DNA of 64,000 nucleotides, taken from contig NZ_JARGET010000022.1 in the NCBI RefSeq assembly GCF_029210485.1, forward strand, positions 1 through 64,000, given 5' to 3'. Position 1 is the stretch's first letter. Each line of letters begins with the position of its first letter. The DNA comes from Hoeflea sp. YIM 152468 (GTDB lineage Bacteria > Pseudomonadota > Alphaproteobacteria > Rhizobiales > Rhizobiaceae). This document shows positions 310-40,323 of the stretch, in pieces. The position numbers and the translations under genes were made by a program. Under the pieces are notes generated by a model. That model did not search any database and had not been told where the DNA came from. It saw only the letters and a program-made list of their open reading frames with translations.

Positions 310-1581
310 TTACTTCTTCAGCTTGGCCTGTTCCAGGGACCAGTACTCCATGTCGAACAAGTGCCCAGGCGTCAGCGGTGTGAAGCGTCCGTAAGATTCG
401 GCGGCAAGCATCACCCGCATCGACTGTGACGTCAGATCCGCGACGATCTTGGCTTCGCCGGCGGTTTTGCCGAACCCGACCATGCCGACATTCTCGATAT
501 GGGCCACCCTTGGCAGGCAATCAAGCATGGTCTTGGGTTCTTTCGCCTGTGCTTCCCCGGCCCGGAAATAAGCCTCGTAACGCGTGCCGTAGTTTTTCAA
601 TGCGCGGTCGATCGCCTCTGCGCTGTCTGTGCTCTTGAGCAACAGCGGGAATGGTTTGACGCGGATGACATGATCCGGCGTGACTGTGCCGCGGGTGGCA
701 AGGTCAGCCAGATCCGGATGCTCGTGAAAGGTCCTGATCGTCGGCCCGGTGCGGGCGTCGATGGCAATTGCGTCTGCAAAAACCGGTCCGGCAGCCTGCA
801 ATCGCTCCTTGAGCAAATCGATAAATCGGTGTTCCTGTGGCCCCTCGTCAGTCGGCAGAATCGCTATGCCATGACTGGCCAGATGGCGCTCGGCCATATT
901 GACGAATTCGATCATCCGGTCATAAGATTGTCGGGCGGTCTCGCCAAAGGTGAACAGGCCGTGATTGACCAGCCACAACCCCTCCGCCTCCGGATTGGCG
1001 TCGGCGATTTCCGCAGCGGCGATGGAAAGATCAAAACCCGGCATCACGTAGGGCACAACAGCCAGCCGATCACCATAAACGACACCGCAGATCTCGGCGG
1101 CGTCTGGCTGATTGACCAGAGCAAGAACCGCCGTGGCATGGGAATGGTCGACAAATTTCGCCGGCAGGAAACCGTGCAGCAGCGTTTCCAGCGATGGATT
1201 TGGCGATTGGGCATCCAACAAATTGGCCCGCAATAGCGCCACCATTTCCGGATCGCTGAGCGCACCGGCCCGGCCTCCACTGCGGATCGCGTCAAGATGC
1301 AACGCCGGAAGTCCCGGCGCCTCGATGGTTGCCAGATCCCAGCCACTGCCCTTGACGTGCATCACCTCGCCACTGGTGCCGCGCCTGGTCTTGACCGAGG
1401 TATTGCCGCCCCCGTGCAAAACCAGATCAGGATCCCCGCCGATCAGCCGTGACGTGTAGATACGTAGCGCCAGGTCACGGTCTGCCGGCTCCGCGCCGGC
1501 ATCCCTTTCCCACCGTGCCGCGTCGTCGTCGTTCCAGCGGTTTTCGGTCAGGCTCACGCTCACGGGTTCAGTCTCATACAT
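310..1581 (-). CDS. Class II aldolase of the RhaD/SDR bifunctional family, aldolase domain only
   Basis: This 423-residue protein matches the N-terminal half of bifunctional rhamnulose-1-phosphate aldolase/short-chain dehydrogenases. Visible features are the HGGGNTS phosphate/entry motif (56-62), KGSG (77-80), a likely catalytic Glu132, and zinc ligands His146, His148 and His207. It stops exactly at the usual interdomain linker (WSLEQAKLKK, then stop), so the roughly 270-residue Rossmann dehydrogenase half is missing, and insertion-sequence remnants follow. It is the last gene of the AI-2 operon and overlaps the LsrG-like gene by 8 bases. In that context it may cleave a phosphorylated AI-2 derivative to dihydroxyacetone phosphate, taking the place of LsrF; this is inference. 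The alternative is a leftover of rhamnose catabolism. Confidence 0.85.
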   Translation of the reverse strand: MYETEPVSVSLTENRWNDDDAARWERDAGAEPADRDLALRIYTSRLIGGDPDLVLHGGGNTSVKTRRGTSGEVMHVKGSGWDLATIEAPGLPALHLDAIRSGGRAGALSDPEMVALLRANLLDAQSPNPSLETLLHGFLPAKFVDHSHATAVLALVNQPDAAEICGVVYGDRLAVVPYVMPGFDLSIAAAEIADANPEAEGLWLVNHGLFTFGETARQSYDRMIEFVNMAERHLASHGIAILPTDEGPQEHRFIDLLKERLQAAGPVFADAIAIDARTGPTIRTFHEHPDLADLATRGTVTPDHVIRVKPFPLLLKSTDSAEAIDRALKNYGTRYEAYFRAGEAQAKEPKTMLDCLPRVAHIENVGMVGFGKTAGEAKIVADLTSQSMRVMLAAESYGRFTPLTPGHLFDMEYWSLEQAKLKK

Positions 1582-1879
1582 CGGTCAGATCAGACATCAT
1601 CATGCGGTAGAAAACCTTCGACCGTGGCCCGGTCATGATGTCGTCGAGCAGCGCCACGGTCTTTGCATAATGCTCTGTATTGCGATGCGCATCGACCGCG
1701 GCTTCGTCGACAAACACCTCGTAAATAGAGAACCGGGTTTCGTCATCGGGGTCCTGAAGCACGTCGAAGCGCAGGTTTCCCGGCTCCTGCCTTGTACCGT
1801 CGTAATTGATCCGGAAGGCGTCGAGAAAATCCCCGACGCGACCCGGCTTCACCTGAATATGAACGAGTTGAACCAACAT
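1574..1879 (-). CDS. lsrG: LsrG-like (4S)-4-hydroxy-5-phosphonooxypentane-2,3-dione isomerase
   Basis: A 101-residue antibiotic-biosynthesis-monooxygenase (ABM) fold protein, close to the 96 residues of E. coli LsrG. It shares with LsrG, from memory, the blocks GNLRFDVLQDP (mid-protein) and MTGPR near the C-terminus. LsrG acts on phospho-AI-2 in the cytoplasm, isomerising it on the way to degradation and ending the quorum signal. The internal ATG at 1879 is chosen because the codons upstream of it overlap the preceding gene and do not resemble the family. It starts 7 bases after the RbsD/FucU-like gene and overlaps the aldolase, so translation is probably coupled. Confidence 0.85.
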   Translation of the reverse strand: MLVQLVHIQVKPGRVGDFLDAFRINYDGTRQEPGNLRFDVLQDPDDETRFSIYEVFVDEAAVDAHRNTEHYAKTVALLDDIMTGPRSKVFYRMMMSDLTDV

Positions 1880-1886
1880 TTCCGCG

Positions 1887-2378
1887 TCACTCCACCCCGG
1901 TCTGGCCGTATTTGACGTTGAGTTCGTGACGTTCTGTCCAGCTTTCCGGCACATCGCCGCCAGTGTTGTCGAACCATTCACGGACAGGAATACCCGAAAC
2001 CAGAGCCACATTGCCCCACGGCATCCAGGCGCCGGTGCGCACAATGAACTTGGCATTGCGATAGCCGTCCTCGTGGAACCATTCGTTCGGCTTCACACCG
2101 CCCTTGGCGTCCGGGAATACGTCGGCCACGCCATTCCAGGCGTTCGGGTTGTTGGCTTTGGCATCGTCGATCATGTGGTACGCCTCGACCCACATATCCT
2201 GCCGGATGGCGCGCAGGACCGTCAGAAGGTCCGGAACACCCGGACACAGCGCCAGATCGATCACCCGATCTTCGTAAGCCATCGGATATCCGGCATCGAC
2301 CACCATCATGATGTCATCATGGCCCATCTCGGAGATCGCCTTGCCAAGCTTTACGTTGAGTACACCCTTGCGTCGCAT
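1887..2378 (-). CDS. RbsD/FucU-family sugar mutarotase
   Basis: A 163-residue member of the D-ribose pyranase/L-fucose mutarotase family. The signature EMGHDDIMMVVDAGYP places the likely catalytic His at residue 20. These small cytoplasmic proteins speed conversion between ring and open forms of sugars. RbsD and FucU are usually 140-150 residues, so this one is complete with a short extension. It sits between the ATPase and the LsrG-like gene of the AI-2 operon. Because AI-2 precursors (DPD) exist as interconverting cyclic and linear forms, it could present the right form to the kinase; no characterised Lsr operon I know carries such a gene, so that role is inference. Confidence 0.85.
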   Translation of the reverse strand: MRRKGVLNVKLGKAISEMGHDDIMMVVDAGYPMAYEDRVIDLALCPGVPDLLTVLRAIRQDMWVEAYHMIDDAKANNPNAWNGVADVFPDAKGGVKPNEWFHEDGYRNAKFIVRTGAWMPWGNVALVSGIPVREWFDNTGGDVPESWTERHELNVKYGQTGVE

Positions 2379-2411
2379 GTTATTTCCCTTTTGATATTGA
2401 TCGGTATTGGT

Positions 2412-3137
2412 TCAGGCGTGTCCCTGAACAATCAGTGAGATGATTTCGTCCTGGGTTGTCGTCGCCATGTCGCGCACTCCGGCAAGCGTGCCCAGATGCA
2501 GGATCGCCACGCGATCGCAGACCTTACGCACATGGCCCAGATCGTGACTGACCATGATGATCCCGATGCCGCTGTCGGCCAGATCGCGCACGATGGACAA
2601 AACCTCGTCGCGGGCACTGGGGCTAAGCGCCGATGTGGGTTCATCAAGAATGATGTAGCGGCTGCCGAAGGCAGTGGTGCGAGCCAGCGCGGAAACCTGC
2701 CGCTGTCCGCCAGAAAGGTGTCCGGATGGAGTGCGCACATCAAACGGCCGCACCGAAAATCCGTTGACAATTTCCTGCGCCCGTTTGCGCATTGCGCCGT
2801 AGCGCAGAAAACCAAGCGCGTTGGTCATTTCCCGCCCGAGAAAGATGTTGTGCACTACCGGCATGTCATCGAACAGGGCAAGATCCTGGTACAGCATCGC
2901 AATGCCGGCATCGCTCGCTTCGGATGAATTGCGGAACTCGTGCTTTTCGCCATCGACTTCGATGGTGCCCGCGTCGGGCGTAACCGCTCCGGCAAGCACC
3001 TTCATCAGCGTCGACTTCCCGGCACCATTGTCTCCGAGCAAACCGACAACTTCACCTGCCTCCACCGACAGGTCGATCCCCTCGATTGCGGTGACTGCAC
3101 CGTAGTGTTTGGAAATTCCGCGAAGGACTACGCTCAT
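2412..3137 (-). CDS. ABC transporter ATP-binding protein, single domain (sugar/AI-2 type)
   Basis: A 241-residue nucleotide-binding domain with Walker A GDNGAGKS (35-42), Q-loop Gln84, signature LSGGQ (141-145), Walker B YIILDE (161-166) and an H-loop in MVSHD. LsrA and RbsA have two fused domains (about 500 residues), while this has one, like FrcA-type ATPases of Rhizobiales fructose transporters. It must therefore work as a homodimer. It follows the LuxP-like binding protein gene after a strong hairpin at 3174-3197 and probably powers AI-2 import together with the single permease at 4387. Confidence 0.92.
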   Translation of the reverse strand: MSVVLRGISKHYGAVTAIEGIDLSVEAGEVVGLLGDNGAGKSTLMKVLAGAVTPDAGTIEVDGEKHEFRNSSEASDAGIAMLYQDLALFDDMPVVHNIFLGREMTNALGFLRYGAMRKRAQEIVNGFSVRPFDVRTPSGHLSGGQRQVSALARTTAFGSRYIILDEPTSALSPSARDEVLSIVRDLADSGIGIIMVSHDLGHVRKVCDRVAILHLGTLAGVRDMATTTQDEIISLIVQGHA

Positions 3138-3173
3138 GTCATGTCTTCCAGATTGCAGCTTGTATCTTGGGGT

Positions 3174-3197
3174 GCAGGGGCCGGCTCCGGCCCCTGC
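3174..3197 (-). terminator. Perfect hairpin after the LuxP-like binding-protein gene
   Basis: The 11-base arms GCAGGGGCCGG and CCGGCCCCTGC are perfectly complementary around a 2-base centre. There is no U-run after it, so it is more likely a 3' stabilising or attenuating element than a full terminator. It lies between the binding-protein stop (3220) and the ATPase start (3137) and could raise the binding protein above the ATPase. Confidence 0.6.
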
Positions 3198-3219
3198 GTG
3201 TTCTCAGCTGTGACAAGGC

Positions 3220-4356
3220 TTAGCGGTCAAGCTTTCCGGAATAGCGGAAGGCGTAATCCGTCTCGGCGTCGATCTGTTCGGCGCTCATGGTGTAATCGAT
3301 CGGCTTGATTGTCGCCGCGACCACCACCGGCACTTCTTCGCCCTCGGTGTGAGCGCGAATGGCCTCGGCAACAGACACACCCCAGTCGTCGTTCACACGA
3401 AACGCCGTCACCTTCAGGCCGCCGTCCTTGATCGACTTAAGCTCGTCGGCACCGCCGCCCCAGCCGTTGATGATGACATCATCCAGCTTGCCACGTTCGG
3501 CTGCGGCGGAAACAACGCCGAGCGCCACCGCCGTGTTGCCGGCGTGCAGCATAGTGATTTCGGGATGGCGGCTGAGCAGCGCCTGACCACCGGAGAATGC
3601 CAGTTCGCGGTCACCATTGGCCTCGAACTCATCGACCATCTTCATGTTGGAGTTGGCCGTGACGCATTCTGCAAAGTGATCGGAACGCTGGCTGTCGATC
3701 AGGCCGGGAATATAACGAACCAGCGCGAATGTGCCTTCGCCGCCGGTTTCACCGATAACCCACCTGCACAGGGCTTCAGCACCGATCGTGTGGTCGAACC
3801 CGACATGGGTGATAGGTTGGCTGTCCGTCCCCAGCGTGTCGACAAACGGGTTCACCACATTCATCACCAGCGTCGGCAATGCCTCTGCGAGGCGTGAAAT
3901 GTTGGATTTCTGCACCTGGTATTCCGAGGGTCCGATGACAACGTAATCGAAGTCGCCGGCCAGTACCTGCTCGACCTGCACACCCTGACGGTCATGCTCG
4001 TCGGGACGGATCATGAATTCCGTCACCTCGAAGGGAATTCCCATTTCCTCCAGCCGCGCCCGGGTCGAAATGTTCAGGCGCGCCCAGGCGTCCGAAGTTT
4101 CGAGGCTTGGGAACATCATCGCGATCTTCAGCGGCTTATCATAGGTCTTCGTGCTCTTGACCGTGTCAGACTGCACCCGCTGCATGAAGGCTTCCATTTT
4201 GGTGCGCTCTTCAGGCATCATCTCGTGCAGTTCAGGCAGCAGGAAGTATCCGCGTTCCTGTGCACCCGCCGGCACCTCCTGTGCGGCCAGCGGCAGCGAC
4301 ATCGCAACAAGTGCAGCGCTTGTCATCATCATGCGTCTCATGGATATGGTCTTCAT
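3220..4356 (-). CDS. LuxP-like autoinducer-2 periplasmic binding protein
   Basis: A 378-residue periplasmic binding protein with a signal peptide (1-25, AxA-type end LAAQ). It aligns by eye with Vibrio LuxP over its length: FPSLETSDAW (82-91), a VGFDH block (185-189), the NGWGGG block (297-302), FRVNDDWG (319-326) and the terminal FRYS. Remembered LuxP ligand contacts Ser79, Trp82, Asn159, Arg215, Trp289 and Arg310 appear conserved as Ser88, Trp91, Asn166, Arg224, Trp299 and Arg320. LuxP Gln77 and Asp267 correspond to Glu86 and Ala276. In Vibrio, LuxP partners the LuxQ kinase; here it is encoded with an importer, so it probably delivers AI-2 to the permease. It could instead bind a related sugar. 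Confidence 0.82.
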   Translation of the reverse strand: MKTISMRRMMMTSAALVAMSLPLAAQEVPAGAQERGYFLLPELHEMMPEERTKMEAFMQRVQSDTVKSTKTYDKPLKIAMMFPSLETSDAWARLNISTRARLEEMGIPFEVTEFMIRPDEHDRQGVQVEQVLAGDFDYVVIGPSEYQVQKSNISRLAEALPTLVMNVVNPFVDTLGTDSQPITHVGFDHTIGAEALCRWVIGETGGEGTFALVRYIPGLIDSQRSDHFAECVTANSNMKMVDEFEANGDRELAFSGGQALLSRHPEITMLHAGNTAVALGVVSAAAERGKLDDVIINGWGGGADELKSIKDGGLKVTAFRVNDDWGVSVAEAIRAHTEGEEVPVVVAATIKPIDYTMSAEQIDAETDYAFRYSGKLDR

Positions 4357-4386
4357 TTCAGTCTCCTCCCTTGGTAATTCGTTTGT

Positions 4387-5418
4387 CTATTCTTCAGTCC
4401 TCGTATTGCGGCGTGAGTAGAGACCGATGGTGATCAGGATGACGGCACCGGCTGCGACGTGCTGCCAGAAAGCTTCAAATCCGAGGATGACCACGGCATT
4501 GACGATGGTCGCCAGGAGCCATGCACCCAGCAGCGTCCCGACGATTGAGCCCCGGCCGCCAAACAGGTTGGTGCCGCCGACAATCACGGCCGCAATAGTA
4601 TTGAGCAGGATCGTGACTGCCCCCGATGCGACCACCGCATCCAGGCGTCCGGTCAACATGATGCCGCCGAGTGCTGCAATCAGACCCATGAAGACGTAGA
4701 CACCGATGCGGTAGCGAAGCACGCTGATCCCCAGCCGCTTGGCAGCCGTCGGGTTGCCGCCAACAGCATGAAGGCGGGCGCCGACCTTATGATAGGCAAA
4801 GACAAAATGAGCGATGATCACGACCGACAGTCCGAGCACCACCGGGACCGGTATGCCAAGCAGTCGTCCGCGCCCAAGCCACGTTATAGCTTCTGGGAAG
4901 GCGAAGAACACGCCGCCGCCGGCATAAACCAGAGCCAGCCCGCGAAAGATCAGTTCTGTCGACAGGGTGACGATGAAGTCGGGCATTTTCAGTTTGGTGA
5001 TCAAGACACCGTTGATCAGGCCGCAAAGCCCCCCCGTGGCGAAACCGATCAGAACCGAAAACCATAGCGGCAGGCCGAAATCCTTCAGTGCCGCGGCAAA
5101 GGCGACACTCGACAGTGTCAGGATCGCCCCGATCGACAGATCGATCCCCCGCGCAGTGATCACAGCGGTCATTCCGACTGCCAGCAGCATGATCAGCGAA
5201 GCATCGATCGAGATGGCGCGCAGATTGCCGAGCGAAAAGAACGTTGGCGCGGCGAAAGCCATGACGACGCCAATAATGACCAACATCACCGCAGGCGCCG
5301 ACAGTGGCACCCTTGTCGGCCCAAAGAGCGGTGGCAGGCTGTTTCGCCAATCTGCAACCTCAAGTTCGGCACGCAGCCGCTTGGCTGGGTCGTCACGATT
5401 TTCCTGTACCAAGCTCAA
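4387..5418 (-). CDS. ABC transporter permease, RbsC/LsrC type
   Basis: A 343-residue inner-membrane protein of the BPD_transp_2 family with about eight to ten hydrophobic segments, and the family blocks AVGMTAVITARGIDLSIG and VGGTNLFGGRGSI. LsrC and LsrD form a pair in enteric bacteria, but here only one permease gene is present, so it would work as a homodimer like RbsC. It is the first gene after the operator-promoter at 5466-5493 and is followed 30 bases later by the LuxP-like gene. Confidence 0.92.
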   Translation of the reverse strand: MSLVQENRDDPAKRLRAELEVADWRNSLPPLFGPTRVPLSAPAVMLVIIGVVMAFAAPTFFSLGNLRAISIDASLIMLLAVGMTAVITARGIDLSIGAILTLSSVAFAAALKDFGLPLWFSVLIGFATGGLCGLINGVLITKLKMPDFIVTLSTELIFRGLALVYAGGGVFFAFPEAITWLGRGRLLGIPVPVVLGLSVVIIAHFVFAYHKVGARLHAVGGNPTAAKRLGISVLRYRIGVYVFMGLIAALGGIMLTGRLDAVVASGAVTILLNTIAAVIVGGTNLFGGRGSIVGTLLGAWLLATIVNAVVILGFEAFWQHVAAGAVILITIGLYSRRNTRTEE

Positions 5419-5736
5419 GCTTTTCTCCCGAAATCAAATGATCATATATTCTCGTTCCAAACATATGAACACATTGTTCAAATGATCTGTCAAGGCATTA
5501 TTTGTTCAGGCAGTCGCACTTTCGGGCAACTTTCACCATGCCGTAACTCGGCATGGAGGGGCCGCCTTGAAATGCAAAGAACGGGCCGGCGAACCCCGGG
5601 CCGATCAACGCCACAGGAGATATCTTGAATGGCAGACAGGGACCGGGTGAAAGAATGGAATAACGCAGCGCTGGTGCACACCACGCAGGCCAGAGCGCCA
5701 AATCTAGCGCAAAAGGCCCGGCTACATGGAACAATT
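5419..5736. other. Intergenic region holding the AI-2 operon promoter and a palindrome
   Basis: These 318 bases lie between the regulator and permease genes, both on the minus strand. I see no protein. The right part has an 8-base inverted repeat, CCATGCCG/CGGCATGG, at 5536-5556 around TAACT with no T-run, possibly the regulator transcript end. The left part holds the promoter and operator listed separately, plus another TGTTCA half-site near 5502. Confidence 0.6.
5466..5493 (-). promoter_or_regulatory. Predicted SorC/LsrR-type operator overlapping the AI-2 operon promoter
   Basis: A perfect 15-base inverted repeat TGAACA-CAT-TGTTCA occupies 5466-5480. On the minus strand TTGACA (5493-5488) gives a consensus -35 element, and the -10 would fall at or just below 5470, so the palindrome sits between the two elements where a repressor would block RNA polymerase. 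SorC-family regulators (LsrR, B. subtilis DeoR) are known to favour TGAACA-type half-sites. A related block recurs upstream of the regulator and propeller genes (6850-6898). Function is inferred. Confidence 0.6.
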
Positions 5737-6669
5737 CTAGCTCATCAAAGCCTTGGCGCTCTCTTCGTCGGTGACGAAAATATCGATGAAATCGCCGCGC
5801 AGTGCCGCCCGAATGGCAGGTATCTTGTCTTGTCCGCCCGCGACCGCGATCATTTGAGGGTTCCCACGATAGCTCTTCAGCGGCAACCCTATAACCCGCT
5901 CATGCAGAGGAAAATCCAGCTCCTGGCCGTTCTCGTCGATAAAGCGGCACAACACATCGCCGACCGCCCCGCCGCGCCGCATGGCACGCACCTCAGCCGG
6001 GTGGACATAGCCGTGCCGTATGACACTGGCTTTTTCATCCACCGCGCCGATACCAACCAGAGCGTAATCCGCCCGCAATGCCATATCCAGCGTGCTTCGC
6101 ACACCGGTATCTCGCAACATGGCTTGCGCAACTTGCGGATCCTCGACAACGAGGGGTGCTGACACGAGATACATCTTGCGGTCGTTGCCAGCCAGCCGGA
6201 GGCCGTCAACATAGGCCTGAACCCCGCCTGTCATGGCGACCAGATCGATGCTCCGGTCCTGAAACAGATGGCCCAACCGATTAATCGCAAAACCAACCGT
6301 TTCGCCCCACCCGACCGCGAGAAGCCCGCCTTCATCCAACTTGTGCATCAGGATCTGTGCCGCCGCCTGACCCAACCGGTCGTTGAGCGATTCCGCTTCC
6401 AGGTGCGGAATCACACGCACTTCCTTCAGTCGAAAGCGGTTCTGAATGCTCCTTTCGATCTCGAGGCAGCCCTGTAGCGCCGAGTTGATCCGGACCTCGA
6501 TCATCCCGGTCCGCCGACCGTTTTCCAACAGCCGCGACACCTTGATCCTTGGCAGCCCAAGCATCTGACCGATCACCTGCTGGGTGAGCCCATCATGGTA
6601 ATAGTACCAGGCCACTCGGGCCAAAAGCGCGTCGTCATCGGACAAGGTGGCGAAGTCTCGTTCTTTCAT
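5737..6669 (-). CDS. SorC-family transcriptional regulator, LsrR-like
   Basis: A 310-residue regulator. Residues about 18-58 form the helix-turn-helix (GLTQQVIGQMLGLPRIKVSR) and the rest is a SorC sugar-binding domain of the LsrR/DeoR type. In E. coli, LsrR represses the lsr operon until phospho-AI-2 from LsrK releases it. The length is typical (LsrR is 317). It lies upstream of the permease on the same strand and is divergent from the propeller and kinase genes, so it can control both arms. TGAACA-type sites in both flanking regions fit autoregulation. The start has a purine-rich GAGGGG site. Confidence 0.85.
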   Translation of the reverse strand: MKERDFATLSDDDALLARVAWYYYHDGLTQQVIGQMLGLPRIKVSRLLENGRRTGMIEVRINSALQGCLEIERSIQNRFRLKEVRVIPHLEAESLNDRLGQAAAQILMHKLDEGGLLAVGWGETVGFAINRLGHLFQDRSIDLVAMTGGVQAYVDGLRLAGNDRKMYLVSAPLVVEDPQVAQAMLRDTGVRSTLDMALRADYALVGIGAVDEKASVIRHGYVHPAEVRAMRRGGAVGDVLCRFIDENGQELDFPLHERVIGLPLKSYRGNPQMIAVAGGQDKIPAIRAALRGDFIDIFVTDEESAKALMS

Positions 6670-6840
6670 TGCTGCCCCTCATGGGCGCCAGAGAGCGGCC
6701 TTGGCGCCTGCGATTCCCGCTCATCAGTACCTCAACCGCTTCGGAAAGGTAAAACTCCCCTGCCCGACACAGCCGAATGTATCCGCGTTCTCCACCCGCC
6801 AAGTTTCCGTACGCTGGTACGGGGGGAGCTTGACGAGCAG

Positions 6841-6925
6841 ATCACTGAGTGTTCATATGTTCATGATTTCAGCAAATGATCTCCGTGTAAAGTGAACAGC
6901 CGATCCTCATGAACCAATTTGTTTA
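6841..6925. promoter_or_regulatory. Divergent control region with repeated TGTTCA/TGAACA half-sites
   Basis: Between the regulator (start 6669) and the propeller gene (start 6947), TGTTCA occurs at 6850-6855 and 6858-6863, TGAACA at 6893-6898, and a degenerate palindrome TGAACCAATTTGTTTA at 6910-6925. The block from CATATG (6854) to CAAATGATCT (ending 6881) resembles the one around 5462-5488 at the permease promoter. TTTACA read on the minus strand at 6891-6886 could be the -35 of the regulator gene. I see no coding sequence in 6670-6946. Confidence 0.5.
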
Positions 6926-6946
6926 ACACCCACAGGAAGAAGAGCA

Positions 6947-8206
6947 ATGGCAAACAGCGACCTGCGTACGCCAGCCCACGCCTTGAACATGCGGCTTATC
7001 GGACATTCCGACCAGGCTGGCCGATCCGACGGAACCCAGATCATGGTCCGCGACGGATACGCCTATGTCGCCCATATTTTCTCCAAGGGGTTCAGCGTCA
7101 TTGACGTGCGTGATCCGGCCAATCCACGCACGGTCAACTTCATCGCTGCACCGGCCAATACCTGGTCGCTGCATCTTCAGGTTCACGACAACCTTTTGCT
7201 GGCGGTCCATGGCCAGGATCAGTTCAGCATTGCCGAAAGCGACGACGAGCGAAACTATTACAAGGCCGACACCCGTGATGTATCGAAGGCAATGAGCCGC
7301 GGCGAGCGCGACTATTCCGCAGGCATGGCCGTGTATGATCTGGGCGACCCGGCAAACCCGCGCCCGATCGGTTTCATGCCGGTCAATGGCCTCGGCCTTC
7401 ACCGGATCTGGTATGTCGGCGGGCGCTGGGCCTACGCTTCGGCGCAGCTTGAGGGATTTTCCGATTTTATCCTCGTCACCATCGACATGTCGGACCCCAC
7501 CAGGCCCGAAATCGTCGGAAAATTCTGGTTGCCCGGAATGAACATCGCCGCCGGCGAGACGCCGGACTGGCCGTTGAGCGAAGGCCGTTACAGCCTGCAC
7601 CACCCGATTGTTGACGGCGACACCGCCTATTGCGGCTGGCGCGACGGCTGCCTGGTCGTGGTGGATGTGGCAGACCGTGCGGCACCCAGGATGTTGGCGC
7701 AGCGCAATTGGGCACCCCCCTTTGGCGGGGGCACCCACAACTGCATGCCGCTACCCGACCGGAATCTACTGATCGTCGTGGATGAAACCGTTCTCGACGA
7801 TGAAGAGGATGGCGACAAGCCAATCTGGGTTTTCGACATTCGGGACAAAACCAACCCGATATCGATATCGACTTTCCCCAAGCCCTGCGATCGCGATTAC
7901 AAGAATGTCGGCGGCCATTTTGGACCGCACAATATCCATGAAAACCGCCCCGGCAGCTTCGTCAGTTCATCGCTGATATTCTCGACATGGCAGAATGGCG
8001 GTTTGCGGATCCATGACATCTCGAATCCATATAGCCCCAGGGAAGTTGGCGCCGTCGTGCCGCAAGCGCCGCACAAACATGTCGACCATCGTCCCGGCAG
8101 ACCCTTGGTCATCAACACCACGGATGTCTTCGTGGACAAATCCGGACTGGTCTATTTCACCGATTTCAGTGGTGGTGGATTGCATATCGCCGAGTTCGAA
8201 GGCTGA
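6947..8206 (+). CDS. LVIVD-repeat beta-propeller protein
   Basis: A 419-residue protein built of repeated blades carrying the LVIVD pattern [VI]-D-[VIL]-x-D/N-P-x-x-P: VIDVRDPANPR, VYDLGDPANPR, TIDMSDPTRPE, VVDVADRAAPR, VFDIRDKTNPI and RIHDISNPYSP. It has no signal peptide, so it is likely cytoplasmic. Metal-binding-type histidines occur in GGTHN and HFGPHNIHENRP. The molecular function of this family is not known to me. It starts behind an AGGAAGAAGAG site and is followed 28 bases later by the LsrK-like kinase, so the two form one divergent arm of the AI-2 locus. A lactonase-like or scaffold role is possible; I do not assign one. Confidence 0.85.
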   Translation: MANSDLRTPAHALNMRLIGHSDQAGRSDGTQIMVRDGYAYVAHIFSKGFSVIDVRDPANPRTVNFIAAPANTWSLHLQVHDNLLLAVHGQDQFSIAESDDERNYYKADTRDVSKAMSRGERDYSAGMAVYDLGDPANPRPIGFMPVNGLGLHRIWYVGGRWAYASAQLEGFSDFILVTIDMSDPTRPEIVGKFWLPGMNIAAGETPDWPLSEGRYSLHHPIVDGDTAYCGWRDGCLVVVDVADRAAPRMLAQRNWAPPFGGGTHNCMPLPDRNLLIVVDETVLDDEEDGDKPIWVFDIRDKTNPISISTFPKPCDRDYKNVGGHFGPHNIHENRPGSFVSSSLIFSTWQNGGLRIHDISNPYSPREVGAVVPQAPHKHVDHRPGRPLVINTTDVFVDKSGLVYFTDFSGGGLHIAEFEG

Positions 8207-8234
8207 ATTATCCGCACGCCTCAGGAGACCCCAG

Positions 8235-9800
8235 ATGCCACAGTATTATCTCGCCATCGATGCCGGCACCGGAAGCGGCCGCGCCGTGGTGTTCGACCAG
8301 ACCGGACGGCAGTGCGGCCTGGGACAACAGGAATGGACCCACGTCGAGGAAGCCAATGTGCCTGGATCGATGGCATTCGATACCGGGGCCAACTGGCCGC
8401 TATTGTGTCGCTGCGTGCGGCAGGCGCTCGAACAGGCTGATGTGCGCGCCGACGAGATCAGCGCCATCAGCACCACATCGATGCGCGAGGGCATCGTGCT
8501 TTACGATGCATCCGGATCTGAAATCTGGGGCTGTGCGAATGTCGACGGCAGGTCGACCACCGAGGTCGCCGCACTGAAAAAGCGCGATCCTGAGCTGGAG
8601 CGGGCATTTTATCGCGTCAGCGGTCAGACTTTCGCACTGGGGGCGTGGCCACGGCTTGAATGGCTGCGCAACAACCGACCGGAAATATTTGCCCGGGCTG
8701 CCCGTCTGTCGATGATCAACGACTGGATCGCAGCCCGGCTGAGCGGTGAGATTGCCGTCGAGCCATCCAATGCCGGCACGACAGGCTTGATGGATCCGAC
8801 CACCAGGCAATGGTCGGACGAGCTGATCGCCAAGGCGGGCCTTCCACGCGACATGTTTCCCGATGTTGTCGAACCCGGCTCAATGATCGGACGTGTCACC
8901 CACAAGGCTGCGGAGGAGAGCGGATTGCTGCAAGGTACCCCCGTCATCTGCGGCGGCGGGGATGTTCAGATGGGTGCTCTCGGGCTGGGCGTGTCCGGTG
9001 ACGGTGACGCGGCCATTCTCGGCGGCACCTTCTGGCAGCAGATCATCAACATTCCGGCGGGACGCACCGATCAGACAATGCGGGTGCGCATCAACCCTCA
9101 CGTGATCGGCGGTCTCAATCAGGCCGAGTGCATTTCATTCTTTGTCGGCCTGACTATGCGATGGTTCCGCGACACCTTTTGCGACGCCGAAAAAGCTGTC
9201 GCCAAGGCGCGCGGTATCGACGTCTATACCTATCTGGAGGAATTGGCCGCCGAAGTGCCAGCCGGCAGCAACGGCATTATCCCGGTGTTTTCGGATGCCA
9301 TGGATTTCGGCCAATGGTATCACGCCGCCCCGTCGTTTCTCAACATGTCGATTGAGCCGGGACACACCACACGGGCCAGCCTGTTCCGTGCGCTGGAGGA
9401 AAATGCCGCGATCGTATCCAGCATCAACCTCGAACGGGTCATCGAGTTCTCCGGCGTCAGCATCGACAAGCCGGTGGTCTTTGCCGGCGGCGCATCGAAA
9501 GGCGCGCTCTGGGGGCAGATCCTGGCGGATGTTCTGGGCCGCGAGGTCGCGCTGCCCAAGGTACGGGAAGCCACGGCGCTTGGATGCGCGGCCGTTGCCG
9601 CCTGCGGTGTCGGAGCCTATTCCACTTTGGCGGAAGCAGGCTCTGCCATGTCCGGTGTCGAGAAAATTCTGACACCCGATCCCGCCATTGCCGGTGTCTA
9701 CCGCGAAACCCGCGCCCGCTGGGAAGCCGCCTATCCTGCGCAAAAACAGCTGGCCGACAACAACGTCACCACCTCTATGTGGCGCGCTCCCGGAATTTGA
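8235..9800 (+). CDS. lsrK: Autoinducer-2 kinase, LsrK-like
   Basis: A 521-residue FGGY-family kinase that follows E. coli LsrK nearly end to end, from memory: LAIDAGTGSGRAVVFD at the N-terminus, SMREGIVLY, DPSNAGTTGL-type and GGGDVQ blocks, GGTFWQQ, the stretch SFFVGLTMRWFRD, WYHAAPSF, LFRALEENAAIVS, and the C-terminal TTSMWRAPG. LsrK phosphorylates AI-2 (DPD) in the cytoplasm, trapping it and creating the inducer of LsrR. The ATG at 8235 is chosen for its AGGAGACCC site and match to the family start. It is probably co-transcribed with the propeller gene. Confidence 0.93.
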   Translation: MPQYYLAIDAGTGSGRAVVFDQTGRQCGLGQQEWTHVEEANVPGSMAFDTGANWPLLCRCVRQALEQADVRADEISAISTTSMREGIVLYDASGSEIWGCANVDGRSTTEVAALKKRDPELERAFYRVSGQTFALGAWPRLEWLRNNRPEIFARAARLSMINDWIAARLSGEIAVEPSNAGTTGLMDPTTRQWSDELIAKAGLPRDMFPDVVEPGSMIGRVTHKAAEESGLLQGTPVICGGGDVQMGALGLGVSGDGDAAILGGTFWQQIINIPAGRTDQTMRVRINPHVIGGLNQAECISFFVGLTMRWFRDTFCDAEKAVAKARGIDVYTYLEELAAEVPAGSNGIIPVFSDAMDFGQWYHAAPSFLNMSIEPGHTTRASLFRALEENAAIVSSINLERVIEFSGVSIDKPVVFAGGASKGALWGQILADVLGREVALPKVREATALGCAAVAACGVGAYSTLAEAGSAMSGVEKILTPDPAIAGVYRETRARWEAAYPAQKQLADNNVTTSMWRAPGI

Positions 9801-10329
9801 TTGATTGCGGACAAAGTTCGGCAACAGAATCCTCCATTCTCCTCATAACCGAGTGAATCAAAGGATTTCCCGCGGCGCAACAAAAACGTTTTCAACAACA
9901 TCCGCCCTTGTGAACCTTGGATTAGCCCGAAGCGTACGTCGGCTTTCGGGCATCTGACATTAACCGCGAATGGCGGAAATGCGACAGCCGACATCTCCGA
10001 TGGCAGCGCAAACTTCGGCTTTAGCCCCAAAACAATCTCACTTCGCCATTTGCTCCAGCTTCTCCAGGTGCTCGTTGCAGGCCTGCTCAACGAGTTGGTA
10101 CAGGATAGCAGTCCGTGCGGACATTCGTCGCATAGCTGATCAAGGATAGCTGAGCGAACAAACCTGGCGTTCACTGCATCTCAGCTTCGGAAACAAGGAA
10201 AAGGTAGTAAGGTTGCATCGGAAGCTCTGATTTGCGGAGTGAATACCCCGCAATGTCTGTTGCATTTACTTGCTTCTGAAAGTAGTTATCTGATTAACCC
10301 TACAGTGTTCAGTTGATAGAAATTGCCTC
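9801..10329. other. 529-base intergenic region without recognisable gene
   Basis: Nothing coding is supported here: frames in either direction are short and lack family resemblance. There is a self-complementary GCCGAAG...CTTTCGGGC pattern around 9928-9952, and the stretch to 10060 looks like decayed sequence. The last 100 bases before the lipoprotein gene are AT-richer and probably carry its promoter. Confidence 0.4.
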
Positions 10330-11436
10330 ATGAGCAAATTGATTGTCATCGTGACCAGCTGCCTCAGTCTTGCCGCCTGTAACGTCGGTGAGGATGGTTC
10401 TCAAGAACCCGTCCGCGGCCTGAAAATCTTCGTCATTGCCGACACGGAACGGGTCAGCGTCAGACGTTTCCCGGGCGTTCTCGAACCGTCCAATCTGAAC
10501 ACGCTGTCCTTTGAGGTCGGCGGGTCGCTTTTGGACTTCGATCTCGCTGTTGGTCAACAGATCGCTGCCGGCGAGGTAGTCGCCCGCCTCGATCCGTCCT
10601 CGCTCGAACTCCAGGTGCGGTCGGCAGAGGCCGGGGTGATGCAGGCGGAAACCGTAGCCGAGAATGCCGCGGCTGCTCTTGCTCGCCAGGAAGCGCTTCT
10701 CAGTTCCGGCACAACCACCGTCGCCACTGTCGCTAACGCACGCACCGAGGCGCAGTCGGCCGCCGCCTCGCTGGTGCAGGCGCAGCAATCGCTTGCCACT
10801 GCCGAGGAAAACCTGGGCGATGCGACGCTCGTCGCGCCCTTCGACGGCATTGTGAATTCGGTCGATGTCTCACCGTTCCAGACAATCAGTTCCGGCACGC
10901 CTGTTGTTTCGCTCTACGATCCCTCGGCGTTCACCGTATCCTTTTCGGTAAGTTTCGACATCGCCGACCGGCTTGTGGTCGGCACACCGGCGAACGTCCG
11001 GCTAGCGGACCGACCGGAGATTACGCTCGATGCCCTTGTCAGCGAATTGGGCGCCCGGGCGGATGCGGTGTCGAGCTTCCCGGTCGTCGTCTCGCTGCAG
11101 GAAATCGATCCGCTCATGAAGGCAGGAATGGCCGTTGAGACGTCGATCTCATTTCCTCTTCCAGCCCAGGAAGGTTACTCCGTTCCGCTCTCGGTCATTA
11201 TCCGGGACGGCAATGCTGACAGCGTTTCGGAGGGCGAGAGGGTCTCGGCGGCTGGCATCTATGTGTATGATCCGGCCACAAGCACTGTGATCCGCCGTCA
11301 GGTCGCCGTTGGCGGCATCCGGGACAACCGGATCATCCTGCTCGACGGTGTCGCGCCCGGCGAACGGATCGCATCAGCGGGTGTGCAGTTTCTGCGCGAC
11401 GGCCAGAAGGTAAAACTCCTCGACGAGGACCGTTAG
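10330..11436 (+). CDS. RND efflux periplasmic adaptor lipoprotein (AcrA/HlyD family)
   Basis: A 368-residue membrane-fusion protein with a lipoprotein signal ending LAAC (Cys17), so it is anchored to the inner membrane from the periplasmic side. Order of domains: beta-barrel start and lipoyl half (about 35-85), a coiled-coil hairpin rich in Ala/Gln/Glu (about 95-160), second lipoyl half containing DATLVAPFDGIV (about 165-180), then beta-barrel and membrane-proximal domains. It bridges the RND pump to an outer-membrane channel. The pump gene begins 3 bases after its stop. No TolC-type gene is nearby, so it must use one encoded elsewhere. Confidence 0.92.
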   Translation: MSKLIVIVTSCLSLAACNVGEDGSQEPVRGLKIFVIADTERVSVRRFPGVLEPSNLNTLSFEVGGSLLDFDLAVGQQIAAGEVVARLDPSSLELQVRSAEAGVMQAETVAENAAAALARQEALLSSGTTTVATVANARTEAQSAAASLVQAQQSLATAEENLGDATLVAPFDGIVNSVDVSPFQTISSGTPVVSLYDPSAFTVSFSVSFDIADRLVVGTPANVRLADRPEITLDALVSELGARADAVSSFPVVVSLQEIDPLMKAGMAVETSISFPLPAQEGYSVPLSVIIRDGNADSVSEGERVSAAGIYVYDPATSTVIRRQVAVGGIRDNRIILLDGVAPGERIASAGVQFLRDGQKVKLLDEDR

Positions 11437-11439
11437 CCC

Positions 11440-14400
11440 ATGGAGGCGCTGACACAATTCGGGATGCATCGATCCCGCTTCACGGTGCTCGCAATGATCG
11501 CTGTGCTGCTGATGGGCCTTTTTGCTTATGGGGCGTTGCCAAAGCGCGAGAACCCCTCGATCACGATCCGCACAGCGATCGTCAGCGCCCAGTTTCCGGG
11601 CATGTCGCCAGAGCGGGTGGAGGATTTGCTGGCGGCTCCCCTGGAACGCGCGGCGCGCGAAATAACCGAAGTCGAAGATATCTCAACACTGATCACAACA
11701 GGCACGGTGACGCTCTGGGTGGCGATGTACGATTCCGTGTCGGGCACTGACCTCGACACAGCCTTTCAGGACTTGCGCACCCGCATGGAAGAAGAGGCAC
11801 TCACCTTGCCCGAGGGAACGCGCGGACCCTTCTTGAACACGAATTACGGGGATGTCGCCATCGCGACCATCGCCGTGACCGGCGACGGCTTTACCCTGCC
11901 CGAGATCGAGAACGCGGCGGCGGATCTGCAGCAGGGTCTCTATGACCTCGACGGCGTCACCAAGGTTACGCTGTCCGGCGAGCAGGACGAACGCATCTGG
12001 CTCGAAATCGACAGCCGTCGCCTGGCCGCAGTCGGCGTCCAGATCCCGCAGATACTTGCCGACCTTGCCGACCAGAACGTGATCCTGCCCGCCGGTGAAA
12101 TCGATGCGGGCGGACAGTCAATCGTTCTGGAAGCCAATGGCAATCTGAAATCCATCGAAGAGATCGAAAATGTGCTCACCCGTGTTTCTGGTCTGGACGG
12201 GGCAGTGCGTTTACGTGACCTGATGAATGTGCGGCGCGGGATAGTCGACCCCCCGCAGGAGCCTGTCTATTTCGACGGGGAACCTGCGGTGCTGGTCAGC
12301 GTCGAAATGGCAGATGACCGCGACATACAGAAGCTTGGGCGGGAGCTGCGCCAAGCCATTGTCGATCTGGAACAGCAACAGCCCATCGGCGTCCGCTACA
12401 ATATATCCACCTTCCAGGAAGCGAACGTCACGATTGCCGTCAATTCGGCCTTATCAAATGTCGGACAGACTTTCGTCGTTGTATTGATCGTCATGGTGAT
12501 TTTCCTGGGGCTCCGTCCGGCGATCGTCATTGCGTGCATTGTTCCCTTCACCATTATGATCGCACTCCTGCTTATGAGCCGCTTCGGCATTGATCTGGAG
12601 CAGGTCTCTATTGCCGCCGTTATCATTTCGCTCGGTCTGCTCGTCGACAATGGCCTCGTCATTGTCGACGATATCCAGAGCCGGATTGATGGTGGCGCTG
12701 CGCCCCGAGAGGCCGCGATCGGTGCCGGCGGACAATTTTTTATGCCGCTCGCTGTTGCATCGGTCACCACGGTATCGGCCTTTATTCCGATGCTGATCCT
12801 TGAGGGTAGCACCGGCGAGTTCGCCTTCTCGCTTGGCGCAGTGGTTGCCATGATGCTTGCCGGATCGTGGCTTGCGGCACATTACTTTCTGCCATTTCTG
12901 GCGGCCACTCTGCTGAGGAAGAAGAACACCTCCGGCGAGGAAGGCCGCATGGTCAGGGTATATGGCGATTTCGTGCGAAGGTGCCTGCCGCTGGGTATCC
13001 CGGTTATCCTGGCCAGCTATGGACTTGTCGTTATCGGGGGGATGGCATTTGGACTGCTCAAGTCGGAGATGTTCCCTTTGAGCGAACGCGCGGAGTTCCT
13101 GATCTATCTCGATATGCCCAAGGGCACAGCAATCACGGCCACCCGGGACGAGGCACTCTCAATTGATACCTGGCTTCGCGACCAGGGCATTAATCCTGAA
13201 ATCAAGAACACAACCACTTTCGTCGGTCACGGCGGCCCGCGCTTTTATCTGGCGCTATCACCGGCGAATACCGACCCCTCGAGTGCCTTCATCCTCGTCA
13301 ACACAACCTCCTACCAGGGCGCGGTTGAAGCGGCAGAGCGCGCGCGGGGTTATCTTTTCGAGAGCCGCCCGGCGGCGCGTGCGCGGGTGACAAGATTGTC
13401 TATGGGCGGTGGTGAATCCGGCATTGTGGAGGTTCAGATCAAAGGACCCGACGCGAATGCCATGCTCGCCGCCGCGAAAAGTGTTGAGGCCGCTTATGCT
13501 GAAGTTCCTGGCATCGTTCTCAACGAGAACGACTGGGGTAACAAGGTTATCAAGGTGGTAGTCGACGTCGCCCAGGACAAAGCCCGCGAACTCGGGGTCA
13601 CCTCGCGCGGGATATCCGATGTTCTCAACACCTATTTCAGCGGGACAACCTATTCGACTTTTCGGGACGGGCCGGACTCAATCCCCATCGTTCTCCGCGC
13701 AGAGCCGGGCTTTCGCGACAGCCTTGAGGACATTGCCAATCTTTCGATCCCGGTAGACGCAGGCCTCATCGCGCTTGACCAGATTGCGACCTTCCGTCCT
13801 CGGCTGGAATTCTCACAGCTCCGCCGCCAGAACCAGGTTCGGCAGATCGTCATTTCAGGCAAGAGTGCGATTCTGTCTGCGCGCGAGGTTGAGGAAGCGA
13901 TCCAGCCAACGCTCGAGAGCCTCGACCTGGGGCCAGACTATCAGGTCGAGATTGGCGGGGAAACGGCAGATTCCGCCGAGACGAACGCCAAACTTGCCGC
14001 AGGCATGCCCCTTGCGCTGATCGTGATGATCGCGGCTCTTGTTTTTCAGTTCAACTCTGCGCGGCGGGTCATGCTCACCTTCATGACGATTCCGCTCATC
14101 ATTATCGGCGCGCCCCTGGCGCTTTTCGTCACCGGCCAGCCATTGTCCTTTTTTGCGATCCTCGGCCTAATCTCGCTCATGGGCATCATCATCAACAATG
14201 CCATCGTCCTGATCGACCAGATCGATATCGAACGCCAGACGCTCGATCGGGACGCGGCGATTGTCGCGGCGGCACGAAAGCGCCTGCGCCCGGTACTGCT
14301 CACATCGCTCACGACGGTTCTTGGATTGCTGCCGATGGCGCTTTTTGGCGGCGCGCTTTTCGAGCCCATGGCGACGCTTATGATCGGTGGACTGCTCCTC

Positions 14401-14499: not shown

Positions 14500-14565
14500 C
14501 TTTTTCTACGGAATAGGCGCCCAGGAAAGTGGACGAAGGGTTGGACGTGAGCGAGGTGATATGCC

Positions 14566-15069
14566 GTGAGCGATAACACTCTGAAACTATTGGAAAACAA
14601 GCTTAACGAAGCGCGTGTTGTGATGAGAGCTTATGACACCAGGGCGCAAATCGTCGGTGTCGGATATGTTTTGGCGCTGGGCATCCTCATCCCCTTTGAA
14701 AGACGGTTTCCGCGACCGGAAGACATCGCTTGGCCGGAAGTTCTCATCCTGTGGGGCGCCATCATAATACCGATAATTCTATTCGGTTATGTCGTCTATC
14801 CGCTCAGAAAATATCGACCCTTTTTGTATTCGCATTCATATGACAAAGAACCCGATTTTTTTTGCACGCCCGAGAATGTTACCTCCGTCAATTTGATGGT
14901 TCTGGATCAGGTCAGATCTGCAGATATAGAAGCCGAATTCGCTGCGGAATTGCGTCATATGGAAATGCTCAAGAGAACCAAGATGAAGCGGTTTATCCGG
15001 GCAATGAAAGGCGCGGGATTTTCTTTTTTGATGCTATTCGTGTTCCAGTTTTGGCGTTCGCTGGTTTAA
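14566..15069 (+). CDS. Three-helix membrane protein of unknown function, PycTM-like layout
   Basis: A 167-residue protein I do not recognise. It has an amphipathic N-terminal helix (1-25), hydrophobic segments at about 28-46 and 58-76, a soluble stretch of about 70 residues rich in charged residues, then a basic helix (MLKRTKMKRFIRAMKGAG) leading into a final hydrophobic segment (150-163). This arrangement recalls the transmembrane effectors of Pycsar-type immunity, but no nucleotide cyclase is adjacent. It begins 66 bases after the pump gene and may be an unrelated cargo gene. Its AT content is higher than that of its neighbours. Confidence 0.6.
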   Translation: MSDNTLKLLENKLNEARVVMRAYDTRAQIVGVGYVLALGILIPFERRFPRPEDIAWPEVLILWGAIIIPIILFGYVVYPLRKYRPFLYSHSYDKEPDFFCTPENVTSVNLMVLDQVRSADIEAEFAAELRHMEMLKRTKMKRFIRAMKGAGFSFLMLFVFQFWRSLV

Positions 15070-28698: not shown

Positions 28699-28738
28699 TG
28701 TTCCTCCAGGAAACGAAAACAGGTGTCGATTGGCTGCG

Positions 28739-40317: not shown

Positions 40318-40323
40318 GTGCAG

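Follow-up and report, generated by a model that had tools for sequence, protein, structure and literature searches.

The window analysed here is a 64,000-nucleotide stretch of Hoeflea sp. YIM 152468 (assembly GCF_029210485.1, contig NZ_JARGET010000022.1, positions 1 to 64,000, forward strand). It contains a nine-gene island at 310-9800, in which every named gene is an open frame. The genes and two promoter/operator-like sites are:

310..1581, minus strand: class II aldolase (Aldolase_II), corresponding to the aldolase half of RhaD-type proteins and lacking the dehydrogenase half; presumed to replace LsrF
1574..1879, minus strand: LsrG-like P-DPD isomerase with ABM fold (NF007791; best PDB match LsrG); ATG at 1879 from the sequence
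1887..2378, minus strand: RbsD/FucU-type mutarotase (NCBIfam and Pfam profile scans)
2412..3137, minus strand: single-domain ABC ATPase of the importer (family scans)
3220..4356, minus strand: LuxP-family periplasmic binding protein (PDB sequence matches, alignment, tree, predicted fold)
4387..5418, minus strand: single ABC permease, BPD_transp_2 (family scans)
5439..5493, minus strand: promoter/operator-like site of the importer operon (TTGACA and conserved repeat arms)
5737..6669, minus strand: SorC-family regulator, LsrR-like (family scan; best PDB match LsrR)
6830..6881, plus strand: promoter/operator-like site of the LVIVD-lsrK unit (TTGACG and repeat arms)
6947..8206, plus strand: LVIVD-repeat beta-propeller (PF08309)
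8235..9800, plus strand: LsrK, autoinducer-2 (AI-2) kinase (curated cut-off exceeded; 5ya0 match; tree)

A preliminary description of this DNA had named LsrR-, LsrK- and LsrG-like proteins, a permease, an ATPase and a binding protein, and all of these are present as open frames. Family scans confirm the aldolase, the RbsD/FucU mutarotase and the LVIVD propeller, and searches of the locus agree that LsrF, a second permease and the two-domain LsrA are missing from the island. The suggestion of a distinct alphaproteobacterial type is borne out by a neighbourhood search, as the gene set recurs in ten genomes of two bacterial orders, with all nine genes in identical order and orientation at nine of the ten loci examined. 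The tenth locus (L151) is without the LVIVD gene and has its regulator on the lsrK strand rather than the importer strand. One copy is plasmid-borne, and we propose that the island is mobile and has moved horizontally. Several of the hosts are marine, and the Hoeflea host is a marine-type alphaproteobacterium.

A degenerate lsr locus, i.e., a complete LsrB system from which LsrF, one permease and half of LsrA have disappeared and which captured an unrelated binding protein by chance, would also have core genes homologous to LsrB-locus genes, as observed. However, all nine genes occur together in 9/10 genomes, the single-permease, single-ATPase build is also found in the sister importers discussed below, and a match to LsrF is absent from LsrB loci too. 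As the gene set recurs, this explanation was set aside as highly improbable.

The kinase scores 804 bits against the LsrK model NF008187, exceeding the cut-off of 528, and matches the solved autoinducer-2 kinase 5ya0 at E 1e-188. In a kinase tree, a check proposed in the preliminary description, it falls within LsrK proper and not in the sister clade, beside the E. coli and Sinorhizobium LsrK (SH-aLRT 98). LsrR is both the best family (299 bits) and the best PDB match (E 9e-68) of the regulator, and LsrG is both the best family (NF007791, 118 bits) and the best PDB match (E 3.5e-25) of the isomerase. These family scores lie under the curated cut-offs, 486 for LsrR and, narrowly, 135 for LsrG, and are therefore counted against a role of the island in AI-2 uptake and breakdown. 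The nearest protein of solved structure is an AI-2 protein for the kinase, the regulator, the isomerase and the binding protein alike.

In 20 of the 24 LsrK loci retrieved from Rhizobiaceae, LsrACDB is accompanied by homologues of the island's kinase, regulator and LsrG. Since the LsrK/LsrR/LsrG core, usually with the aldolase, accompanies LsrACDB in Sinorhizobium-type loci, the island can be seen as the AI-2 processing core joined to another importer. The lsr locus on S. meliloti pSymB (CP140955.1, L178) resembles the island in its LsrK (55%), its LsrR-like regulator, an ABM protein adjoining lsrK and a class II aldolase adjoining lsrB. Unlike the island, its importer consists of two-domain LsrA, LsrC, LsrD and LsrB, and an RbsD-type or LVIVD gene is not annotated in the stretch compared. 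S. meliloti is reported to be without LuxS and to take up AI-2, in work of 2008 attributed to Pereira. The E. coli K-12 lsr locus (NC_000913, L015) shares LsrK, LsrR and LsrG homologues and a divergent control region with the island, but has LsrB with LsrACD, a class I LsrF, and luxS in the host. Measured against Lsr systems, the island has LsrK but not LsrB, two-domain LsrA/LsrC/LsrD or LsrF. E. coli LsrB gave no match at E<=1e-20 in eight island entries (seven genomes, should G015 and G1161 be identical), while LsrB was found in all three lsr genomes used as controls. LuxS was absent from all 61 genomes searched, i.e., the island host and 60 relatives.

AI-2 uptake is known to occur via LsrB importers, and AI-2 sensing via LuxP. 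The binding protein had been described as far closer to LuxP than to LsrB, and the PDB comparison agrees: the top four sequence matches are all LuxP (E 1.8e-47 to 4e-47), followed by a ribose-type binder (E 4.5e-13), and LsrB reaches E 0.058 at best. The predicted fold (Foldseek vs pdb) also places it in the LuxP family. In the tree it lies inside the LuxP superfamily, split from RbsB, AlsB, LsrB and TorT with 98/94 support, at a point where the tree tool warns of long branches. A placement among ordinary sugar binders, apart from LuxP, would have spoken against this assignment and was not observed. The island proteins form a separate clade (100/100) and fall outside that of the LuxP proteins, which is itself supported at 100/100. 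The best tree joins them with a clade of importers that have no Lsr genes nearby, at a support of only 77/24.9, and the alternative joining of island and LuxP is not rejected (p-AU 0.275). Judged from these trees, the Lsr-less importer clade may be as near to the island protein as LuxP is, or nearer. Because the branching order of island, LuxPQ and Lsr-less importers is uncertain, an importer-first origin is as possible as a sensor-first one.

PMC9687752 gives Gln77, Ser79, Trp82, Asn159, Arg215, Thr266 and Arg310 as the LuxP residues that hydrogen-bond AI-2. Six of these seven are identical in all ten island proteins, including Arg215 and Arg310, and Gln77 is replaced by Glu in all ten. The acidic LuxP positions 136 and 267 have become Ser/Thr and Ala/Ser, as in the Lsr-less importers, and the two arginines are kept in both. 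The Lsr-less importers have Asp at 77 and mostly Ala at 159, in contrast to Glu77 and Asn159 in the island proteins. The changes at 77, 136 and 267 and the uncertain clade placement are likewise counted against a role in AI-2 uptake. True LuxP as the identity of the binding protein was set aside on account of the separate clade and residue 77.

The island protein shares its fold and whole-length homology with Vibrio LuxP, which differs in working with the sensor LuxQ. The complete set of seven AI-2-bonding residues, a place in the LuxP-LuxQ clade and a LuxQ partner are all absent from the island. The LuxQ periplasmic domain is absent from 7/10 island genomes, Hoeflea sp. YIM 152468 included, and present in three Stappia-type genomes; in one of these three (G925) the LuxQ-domain gene lies 1.26 Mb from the island and adjoins a second LuxP-like gene. 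The earlier claim that LuxP is wired to an importer holds as far as a LuxP-family protein lies beside an importer, but this protein is not LuxP proper. Similarly, the second permease and two-domain LsrA are indeed absent, but not through loss, as a single permease and ATPase is the usual build of the Lsr-less importer clade (10 of 12 loci, the other two lying on cut contigs). The Ruegeria pomeroyi importer (NC_006569.1, L174), for example, has a LuxP-superfamily binding protein adjoining one permease and one ATPase, and in importers of this type LsrK, LsrR and LsrG are, unlike in the island, not nearby.

Such importers raise the alternative that importer and kinase serve another short 1-deoxy or dicarbonyl sugar (e.g., a pentosone or deoxypentulose from algae or a host), with AI-2 as a side substrate at most. 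The sister-clade importers have the same build and arginines without Lsr genes, the R. pomeroyi importer is accompanied by LacI regulators and sugar-acid genes, and LsrK-sister kinases have the island-type aldolase as a neighbour, together with a 2-hydroxyacid dehydrogenase. The divergence from LuxP at residues 77, 136 and 267 fits as well, as does L-xylosone, reported in PMC12921845 as an AI-2 mimic at LuxP. However, the island kinase belongs to LsrK proper and not to the sister clade, and LsrG and LsrR homologues are both retained in a core which also serves LsrB loci. We regard this alternative as unlikely.

The class II aldolase aligns with bifunctional aldolase/SDR models over their aldolase portion alone, and its residues E132, H146, H148 and H207, presumably metal ligands, are conserved in 29/29 aligned copies. 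The preliminary description did not include that this gene adjoins lsrB in most Sinorhizobium-type lsr loci; a full-length copy is found in 16 of 18 Sinorhizobium-like loci and on the named S. meliloti pSymB. In 317 Rhizobiaceae genomes, the 15 top-scoring matches to the aldolase (at least 435 bits) all come from genomes with LsrK or an LsrK-like kinase. A 435-bit match is absent from 5 of the 20 sampled LsrK genomes, among them those of L093 and L094, which have LsrB loci and the kinases nearest to that of the island, and related kinase-aldolase pairs are accompanied by other genes at L096 and L097; both findings weigh against AI-2 uptake and breakdown. At a threshold of 1e-5, E. coli LsrF matched nothing in the island or the rhizobial lsr loci searched, a set without a positive control. 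Judging from gene content, the class II aldolase probably replaces LsrF; by reasoning, the known LsrG product offers no obvious retro-aldol reaction, which counts against this role.

The mutarotase scores 88.9 bits against an NCBIfam cut-off of 93, is over the cut-off in Pfam, and has H20 and D28 in common with E. coli RbsD, which we take to be catalytic residues. The LVIVD protein had no PDB match at E<=1 in a single-sequence search. Its repeat-level profile matches are to a haloalkylphosphorus hydrolase (E 0.012 and 0.028), and the best fold match of its low-confidence predicted model (pLDDT 68) is the same hydrolase, the Sphingobium phosphotriesterase 5hrm.

Conserved operator-like repeats, also absent from the preliminary description, overlap both island promoters. 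At the importer operon, TTGACA (5493-5488) is followed by TGTTCATATG (5471-5462) and a second arm, ATATGATCA (5447-5439). TTGACA is exact in 9/9 gaps compared, and in all nine the left arm lies 21-22 bases past it, within two mismatches. The LVIVD-lsrK site consists of TTGACG (6830-6835), TGTTCATATG (6850-6859) and AAATGATC (6874-6881).

Collectively, we consider it probable that this is a self-contained, horizontally moved island for AI-2 uptake and breakdown in bacteria which make no AI-2. The island likely takes up the AI-2 of other bacteria. The LuxP-family protein would bind extracellular AI-2, or a molecule very similar to it, and pass it to the importer, built from a single permease and a single ATPase. 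Inside the cell, ring opening may be accelerated by the RbsD-type mutarotase, and LsrK would phosphorylate the open form. P-AI-2 would then release the LsrR-like repressor from the repeats overlapping both promoters and be isomerised by LsrG, after which the class II aldolase would stand in for LsrF.

The same mechanism could mainly serve quenching, in which AI-2 is stripped to disturb neighbours and not for food or sensing; this overlaps with uptake and breakdown and differs in purpose. LuxS is absent, one island copy is plasmid-borne, and AI-2 removal via LsrK is reported in PMC4071575 to attenuate quorum responses. However, aldolase and mutarotase are retained although not needed for quenching alone, and regulation through an LsrR-like protein suggests that the substrate acts as inducer. 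We regard quenching as the main purpose as rather unlikely.

Within the reading of AI-2 uptake and breakdown, the least certain step is that the AI-2 taken up is possibly borated. The ligand may be borated, given that the island protein retains both borate-side arginines of LuxP and that several of the hosts are marine. We tentatively consider a second kind of AI-2 importer, a LuxP-family ABC system for borated AI-2 (S-THMF-borate) in seawater, in which the mutarotase, and perhaps the LVIVD protein, would free and open the furanose inside the cell for LsrK. Mobile among alphaproteobacteria making no AI-2, it would be the marine counterpart of the LsrB system.

In the open-access literature searched, outside of which most subscription papers fall, we recognised no description of a LuxP-type importer with LsrK. 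If true, this combination of a LuxP-family importer and an LsrK core would extend AI-2 removal and eavesdropping to bacteria missed by LsrB surveys. With the island, import of borated AI-2, if it occurs at all, could be tested directly, as could the question of whether LuxP arose as part of an importer or as a sensor; under the tentative reading of a second kind of AI-2 importer, the LuxP sensor would descend from such importers. In addition, alphaproteobacterial lsr loci mostly have a class II aldolase in contrast to the LsrF of enterics, which suggests a final step in AI-2 breakdown of which we found no description, and which would be accessible in S. meliloti too.

The island at 310-9800 is filled by nine genes, seven on the minus strand and two on the plus strand:

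6669-5737, minus strand, SorC-family regulator; best family LsrR, 299 bits against a cut-off of 486
5418-4387, minus strand, permease, separated from the regulator by a 318-base gap
4356-3220, minus strand, binding protein; best solved relative LuxP
3137-2412, minus strand, single-domain ATPase
2378-1887, minus strand, RbsD/FucU protein; H20 and D28 kept
1879-1574, minus strand, LsrG-like ABM protein; best family LsrG, 118 bits against a cut-off of 135
1581-310, minus strand, class II aldolase, overlapping the ABM gene
6947-8206, plus strand, LVIVD propeller, divergent from the regulator
8235-9800, plus strand, LsrK, 804 bits against a curated cut-off of 528

The kinase, described earlier as LsrK-like, is a true LsrK by this score, and its closest solved structure is an autoinducer-2 (AI-2) kinase (E 1e-188). 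The LsrR-like and LsrG-like assignments hold for best family and closest solved relative (LsrR, E 9e-68; LsrG, E 3.5e-25), but both scores are under the cut-offs. Among solved proteins, the binding protein matched LuxP at E 1.8e-47 and LsrB only at 0.058. The LVIVD propeller has many invariant His and Asp/Glu across six copies, and phosphotriesterase is its predicted nearest fold.

Other genes of the window also deserve mention. An RND efflux permease, preceded by a membrane-fusion-like gene, directly follows lsrK (10330-14499), and a single 867-residue frame at 26176-28779 holds two CoA-transferase halves (matches 35-235 and 469-652). Two neighbouring genes at 38176-42944 encode a lactonase whose closest family is D-apionate lactonase ApnL (427 bits against a cut-off of 750) and a RuBisCO-like protein closest to the 3-oxo-isoapionate-4-phosphate decarboxylase OiaX (427 bits against 700); both are under cut-off, and the pair probably represents a branched-sugar-acid pathway.

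When named genomes were scanned with the binding protein, seven loci were obtained. Five of them held the nine genes complete and in unchanged order, namely Hoeflea sp. M_23 (L008), Stappia (L009 and L010) and Pseudotabrizicola (L011 and L012); the complete set was not present in the other two, L013 and L014. An order-wide search of 397 genomes gave a match at 1e-40 in 14, at island level in two (the window and the Stappia-type genome G925). In the family of Pseudotabrizicola, 24 of 394 genomes had a match and five reached island level, two being the named Pseudotabrizicola and the others (G1467, G1550 and G1239) being added by this search. Scores in this family were cleanly split, with islands at 690 bits or above and the next best at 273.5. 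The gene set pointed out in the preliminary description is thus a recurring one: ten genomes carry islands, the window included, and nine share one arrangement with all nine genes. The island locus of G1239 (L151) does without the LVIVD gene and has its regulator on the lsrK strand; this regulator gave a better match to E. coli LsrR than that of the window.

The G1467 copy matches that on plasmid pRA01 of Roseicitreum antarcticum. In the LsrK tree, made by a quick method with SH-aLRT support only, both Hoeflea-type kinases join the Roseicitreum kinase (Rhodobacterales; SH-aLRT 100), apart from Stappia. Additionally, nothing in the compared stretches of the nine other islands matched the window's right flank (9901-18000, including the RND genes) at the DNA level at 1e-10. 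The kinase grouping, the unmatched flank and the plasmid copy together point to horizontal transfer of the island.

Lsr in alphaproteobacteria has been reviewed (PMC3386761), and lsrB is among the genes reported in S. meliloti and Rhodobacter (PMC2561040). LsrK was found at E<=1e-100 in 25 of 394 genomes of the window's family, 23 of them over the cut-off, and 24 of these loci, the window's own being left out, were fetched. LsrA, C, D and B stand alongside LsrK, the regulator and LsrG in 18 Sinorhizobium-like loci and in L093 and L094; the remaining loci are L092 (LsrK and LsrR alone, on a short contig), the Hoeflea M_23 island, and L096 and L097, whose LsrK-like kinases score under the LsrK cut-off. 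The kinases nearest to the island's are those of L093, L094 and L092 (support 94, LsrK tree). The lsr locus on S. meliloti pSymB runs from the class II aldolase through lsrB, D, C and A to the regulator, lsrK and the gene of the ABM protein. A full-length aldolase homologue (52-56%) adjoins lsrB in 16 of the 18 Sinorhizobium-like loci; L081 has a fragment, and none was found in L087, also Sinorhizobium-like, L093 or L094. The aldolase matched at 1e-70 in 123 of 317 family genomes, and the 15 best matches (at least 435 bits) were all in genomes with LsrK or an LsrK-like kinase, the window included; five other LsrK genomes of this sample (G459, G499, G574, G598 and G635) had no match of that score. 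Most of the weaker matches (407 bits or less) lay in frames of roughly 680-940 residues, which is as long as bifunctional aldolase/dehydrogenases. Four positions, which we take to be metal ligands, are kept in all 29 aligned aldolases. LsrF is described as a class I aldolase-like enzyme (PMC2728841), and E. coli LsrF had no match at 1e-5 in any locus searched, these loci being without a positive control. The island is therefore the alphaproteobacterial lsr core joined to another importer, with the class II aldolase most likely replacing LsrF. The kinases of L096 and L097 form a sister clade of LsrK (about 40%) and are accompanied by this aldolase together with a 2-hydroxyacid dehydrogenase, the gene set of a different, unnamed pathway within the same family.

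The control regions of all islands but L151 were compared, nine in total. At the end of the regulator-permease gap stands TTGACA, without a mismatch in 9/9, and TGTTCATATG follows 21-22 bases after it with at most two mismatches in all nine. A second arm near AAATGAwC, 14 bases further, was detected in six by strict search; the window, L008 and L012 have a weaker form of it. Paired arms thus occurred in six gaps, while three or more did so in 0 of 2000 single-base shuffles, a statistic overstated as the islands are related. The word recurs in the divergent gap, as GAACATATGAACA on the opposite strand, with at most one mismatch in seven islands and four mismatches in two. Five of the six motif matches within two mismatches in the window fall inside these two gaps. 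In a dinucleotide control, three matches against 0.55 expected were equalled by 3 of 100 shuffles; the motif by itself is therefore weak, and the argument is its conservation. By eye, the lsr control regions of E. coli and of S. meliloti also show similar words, TGAACA/TGTTCA.

The binding-protein tree (51 rows, 49 different) splits a LuxP superfamily of 46 rows from RbsB, AlsB, LsrB and TorT at 98/94, with a tool warning of long branches. The superfamily contains the following clades:

low clade, 6 rows
LuxP clade, 9 rows, 8 different, support 100/100; four gammaproteobacterial and five Stappia-group rows
island clade, 10 rows, support 100/100
mid clade, 21 rows, 20 different, support 100/99

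For the last three, the best tree joins island with mid at only 77/24.9, and the AU test rejects neither island with LuxP (p-AU 0.275) nor mid with LuxP (0.14). A permease and an ATPase adjoin the binding protein in 10 of 12 mid-clade loci, the other two being on cut contigs, so one of each is usual in this clade. Homologues of LsrK, LsrR and LsrG at 1e-5 were not found in these 12 loci except for one weak FGGY match (25%), and the Ruegeria pomeroyi importer differs from the island in having LacI regulators and sugar-acid genes as neighbours. A Vibrio replicon (L175, Vibrio sp. THAF191d) also holds a mid-clade LuxP-like protein, on a long branch.

Seven residues are listed as bonding AI-2 in LuxP (Gln77, Ser79, Trp82, Asn159, Arg215, Thr266 and Arg310; PMC9687752), and ten positions were examined altogether. 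All ten island proteins keep six of the seven and have Glu in place of Gln77, while mid-clade rows have Asp77 (21/21) and seldom Asn159 (4/21). Positions 136 and 267 are Asp in LuxP but Ser/Thr and Ala/Ser, respectively, in island proteins. Both arginines are kept in all compared clades and are thus no marker for AI-2. The Stappia-group rows of the LuxP clade (L113 and L171 of G925, L106, L107 and L108) share every one of the ten residues with Vibrio LuxP. The eight best PDB matches of an AlphaFold model (pLDDT 84.7) are all LuxP chains (TM 0.89 by target length for apo-LuxP 1zhh), and LsrB is not among the 50 best structural matches shown. The protein was rightly placed near LuxP, inside its superfamily and apart from RbsB, AlsB, LsrB and TorT, but it forms its own clade; by sequence, it is part of a LuxP-superfamily importer and not LuxP proper.

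LuxS was found in 0 of 61 genomes, the window's included; the control, run on 14 genomes, matched in five, including that of E. coli. Ruegeria mobilis is reported with LsrB-type genes and without LuxS (PMC6333666). LsrB at E<=1e-20 was absent from the eight entries searched for the island genomes other than G1467, G1550 and G1239 (seven genomes if G1161 and G015, a genome of the window's genus that is probably Hoeflea sp. M_23, are the same) and present in all three lsr control genomes. Of the ten island genomes, the three of Stappia type have the LuxQ periplasmic domain and the other seven lack it. In G925, the one genome where the partner gene was looked at, it lies 1.26 Mb from the island and adjoins a second LuxP-like gene, one of those with the Vibrio-type pocket, which would be a case of LuxPQ in alphaproteobacteria. 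Stappia may therefore both sense and import via two LuxP-family proteins. In Zobellella maritima (L013, 1807-6016), the gene after LuxP encodes a protein that combines the LuxQ periplasmic part with PAS, GGDEF and EAL domains, no kinase domain being matched; this pair possibly links AI-2 to c-di-GMP.

What is shown is the genes, their relatives and the sites; the mechanism drawn from these is probable. AI-2 would be captured by the LuxP-family binding protein and imported, its ring would be opened, perhaps with the help of the RbsD-type protein, in which H20 and D28 are kept, and phosphorylation by LsrK would then lead to derepression, isomerisation and cleavage. The kept arginines and the marine hosts suggest borated AI-2 as ligand; Roseicitreum came from intertidal sediment, and the other hosts are presumably marine in origin. 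This reading is weakened as the arginines are also kept in importers probably serving other sugars. The boron of seawater is stated to favour S-THMF-borate (PMC12921845).

Rezzonico and Duffy report luxP in Vibrionales and, in a few cases, in Oceanospirillales and delta-proteobacteria; its neighbours are mostly PAS-domain regulators, and one luxP has neither LuxQ nor ABC genes nearby (PMC2561040). A 2025 survey of 267 LuxP proteins places homologues chiefly in marine categories and in certain other aquatic ones; one of its sentences states that AI-2 is bound by LsrB and LuxP 'for transport into the cell', with gene context absent there (PMC12268683). The literature searched, mostly open-access, gave no published description of this island. 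The earlier view of an AI-2 uptake locus stands in outline, with a LuxP-superfamily importer in the place assigned to LuxP. By predicted function, the island counts as a variant Lsr-type AI-2 system, while by its importer it is no member.
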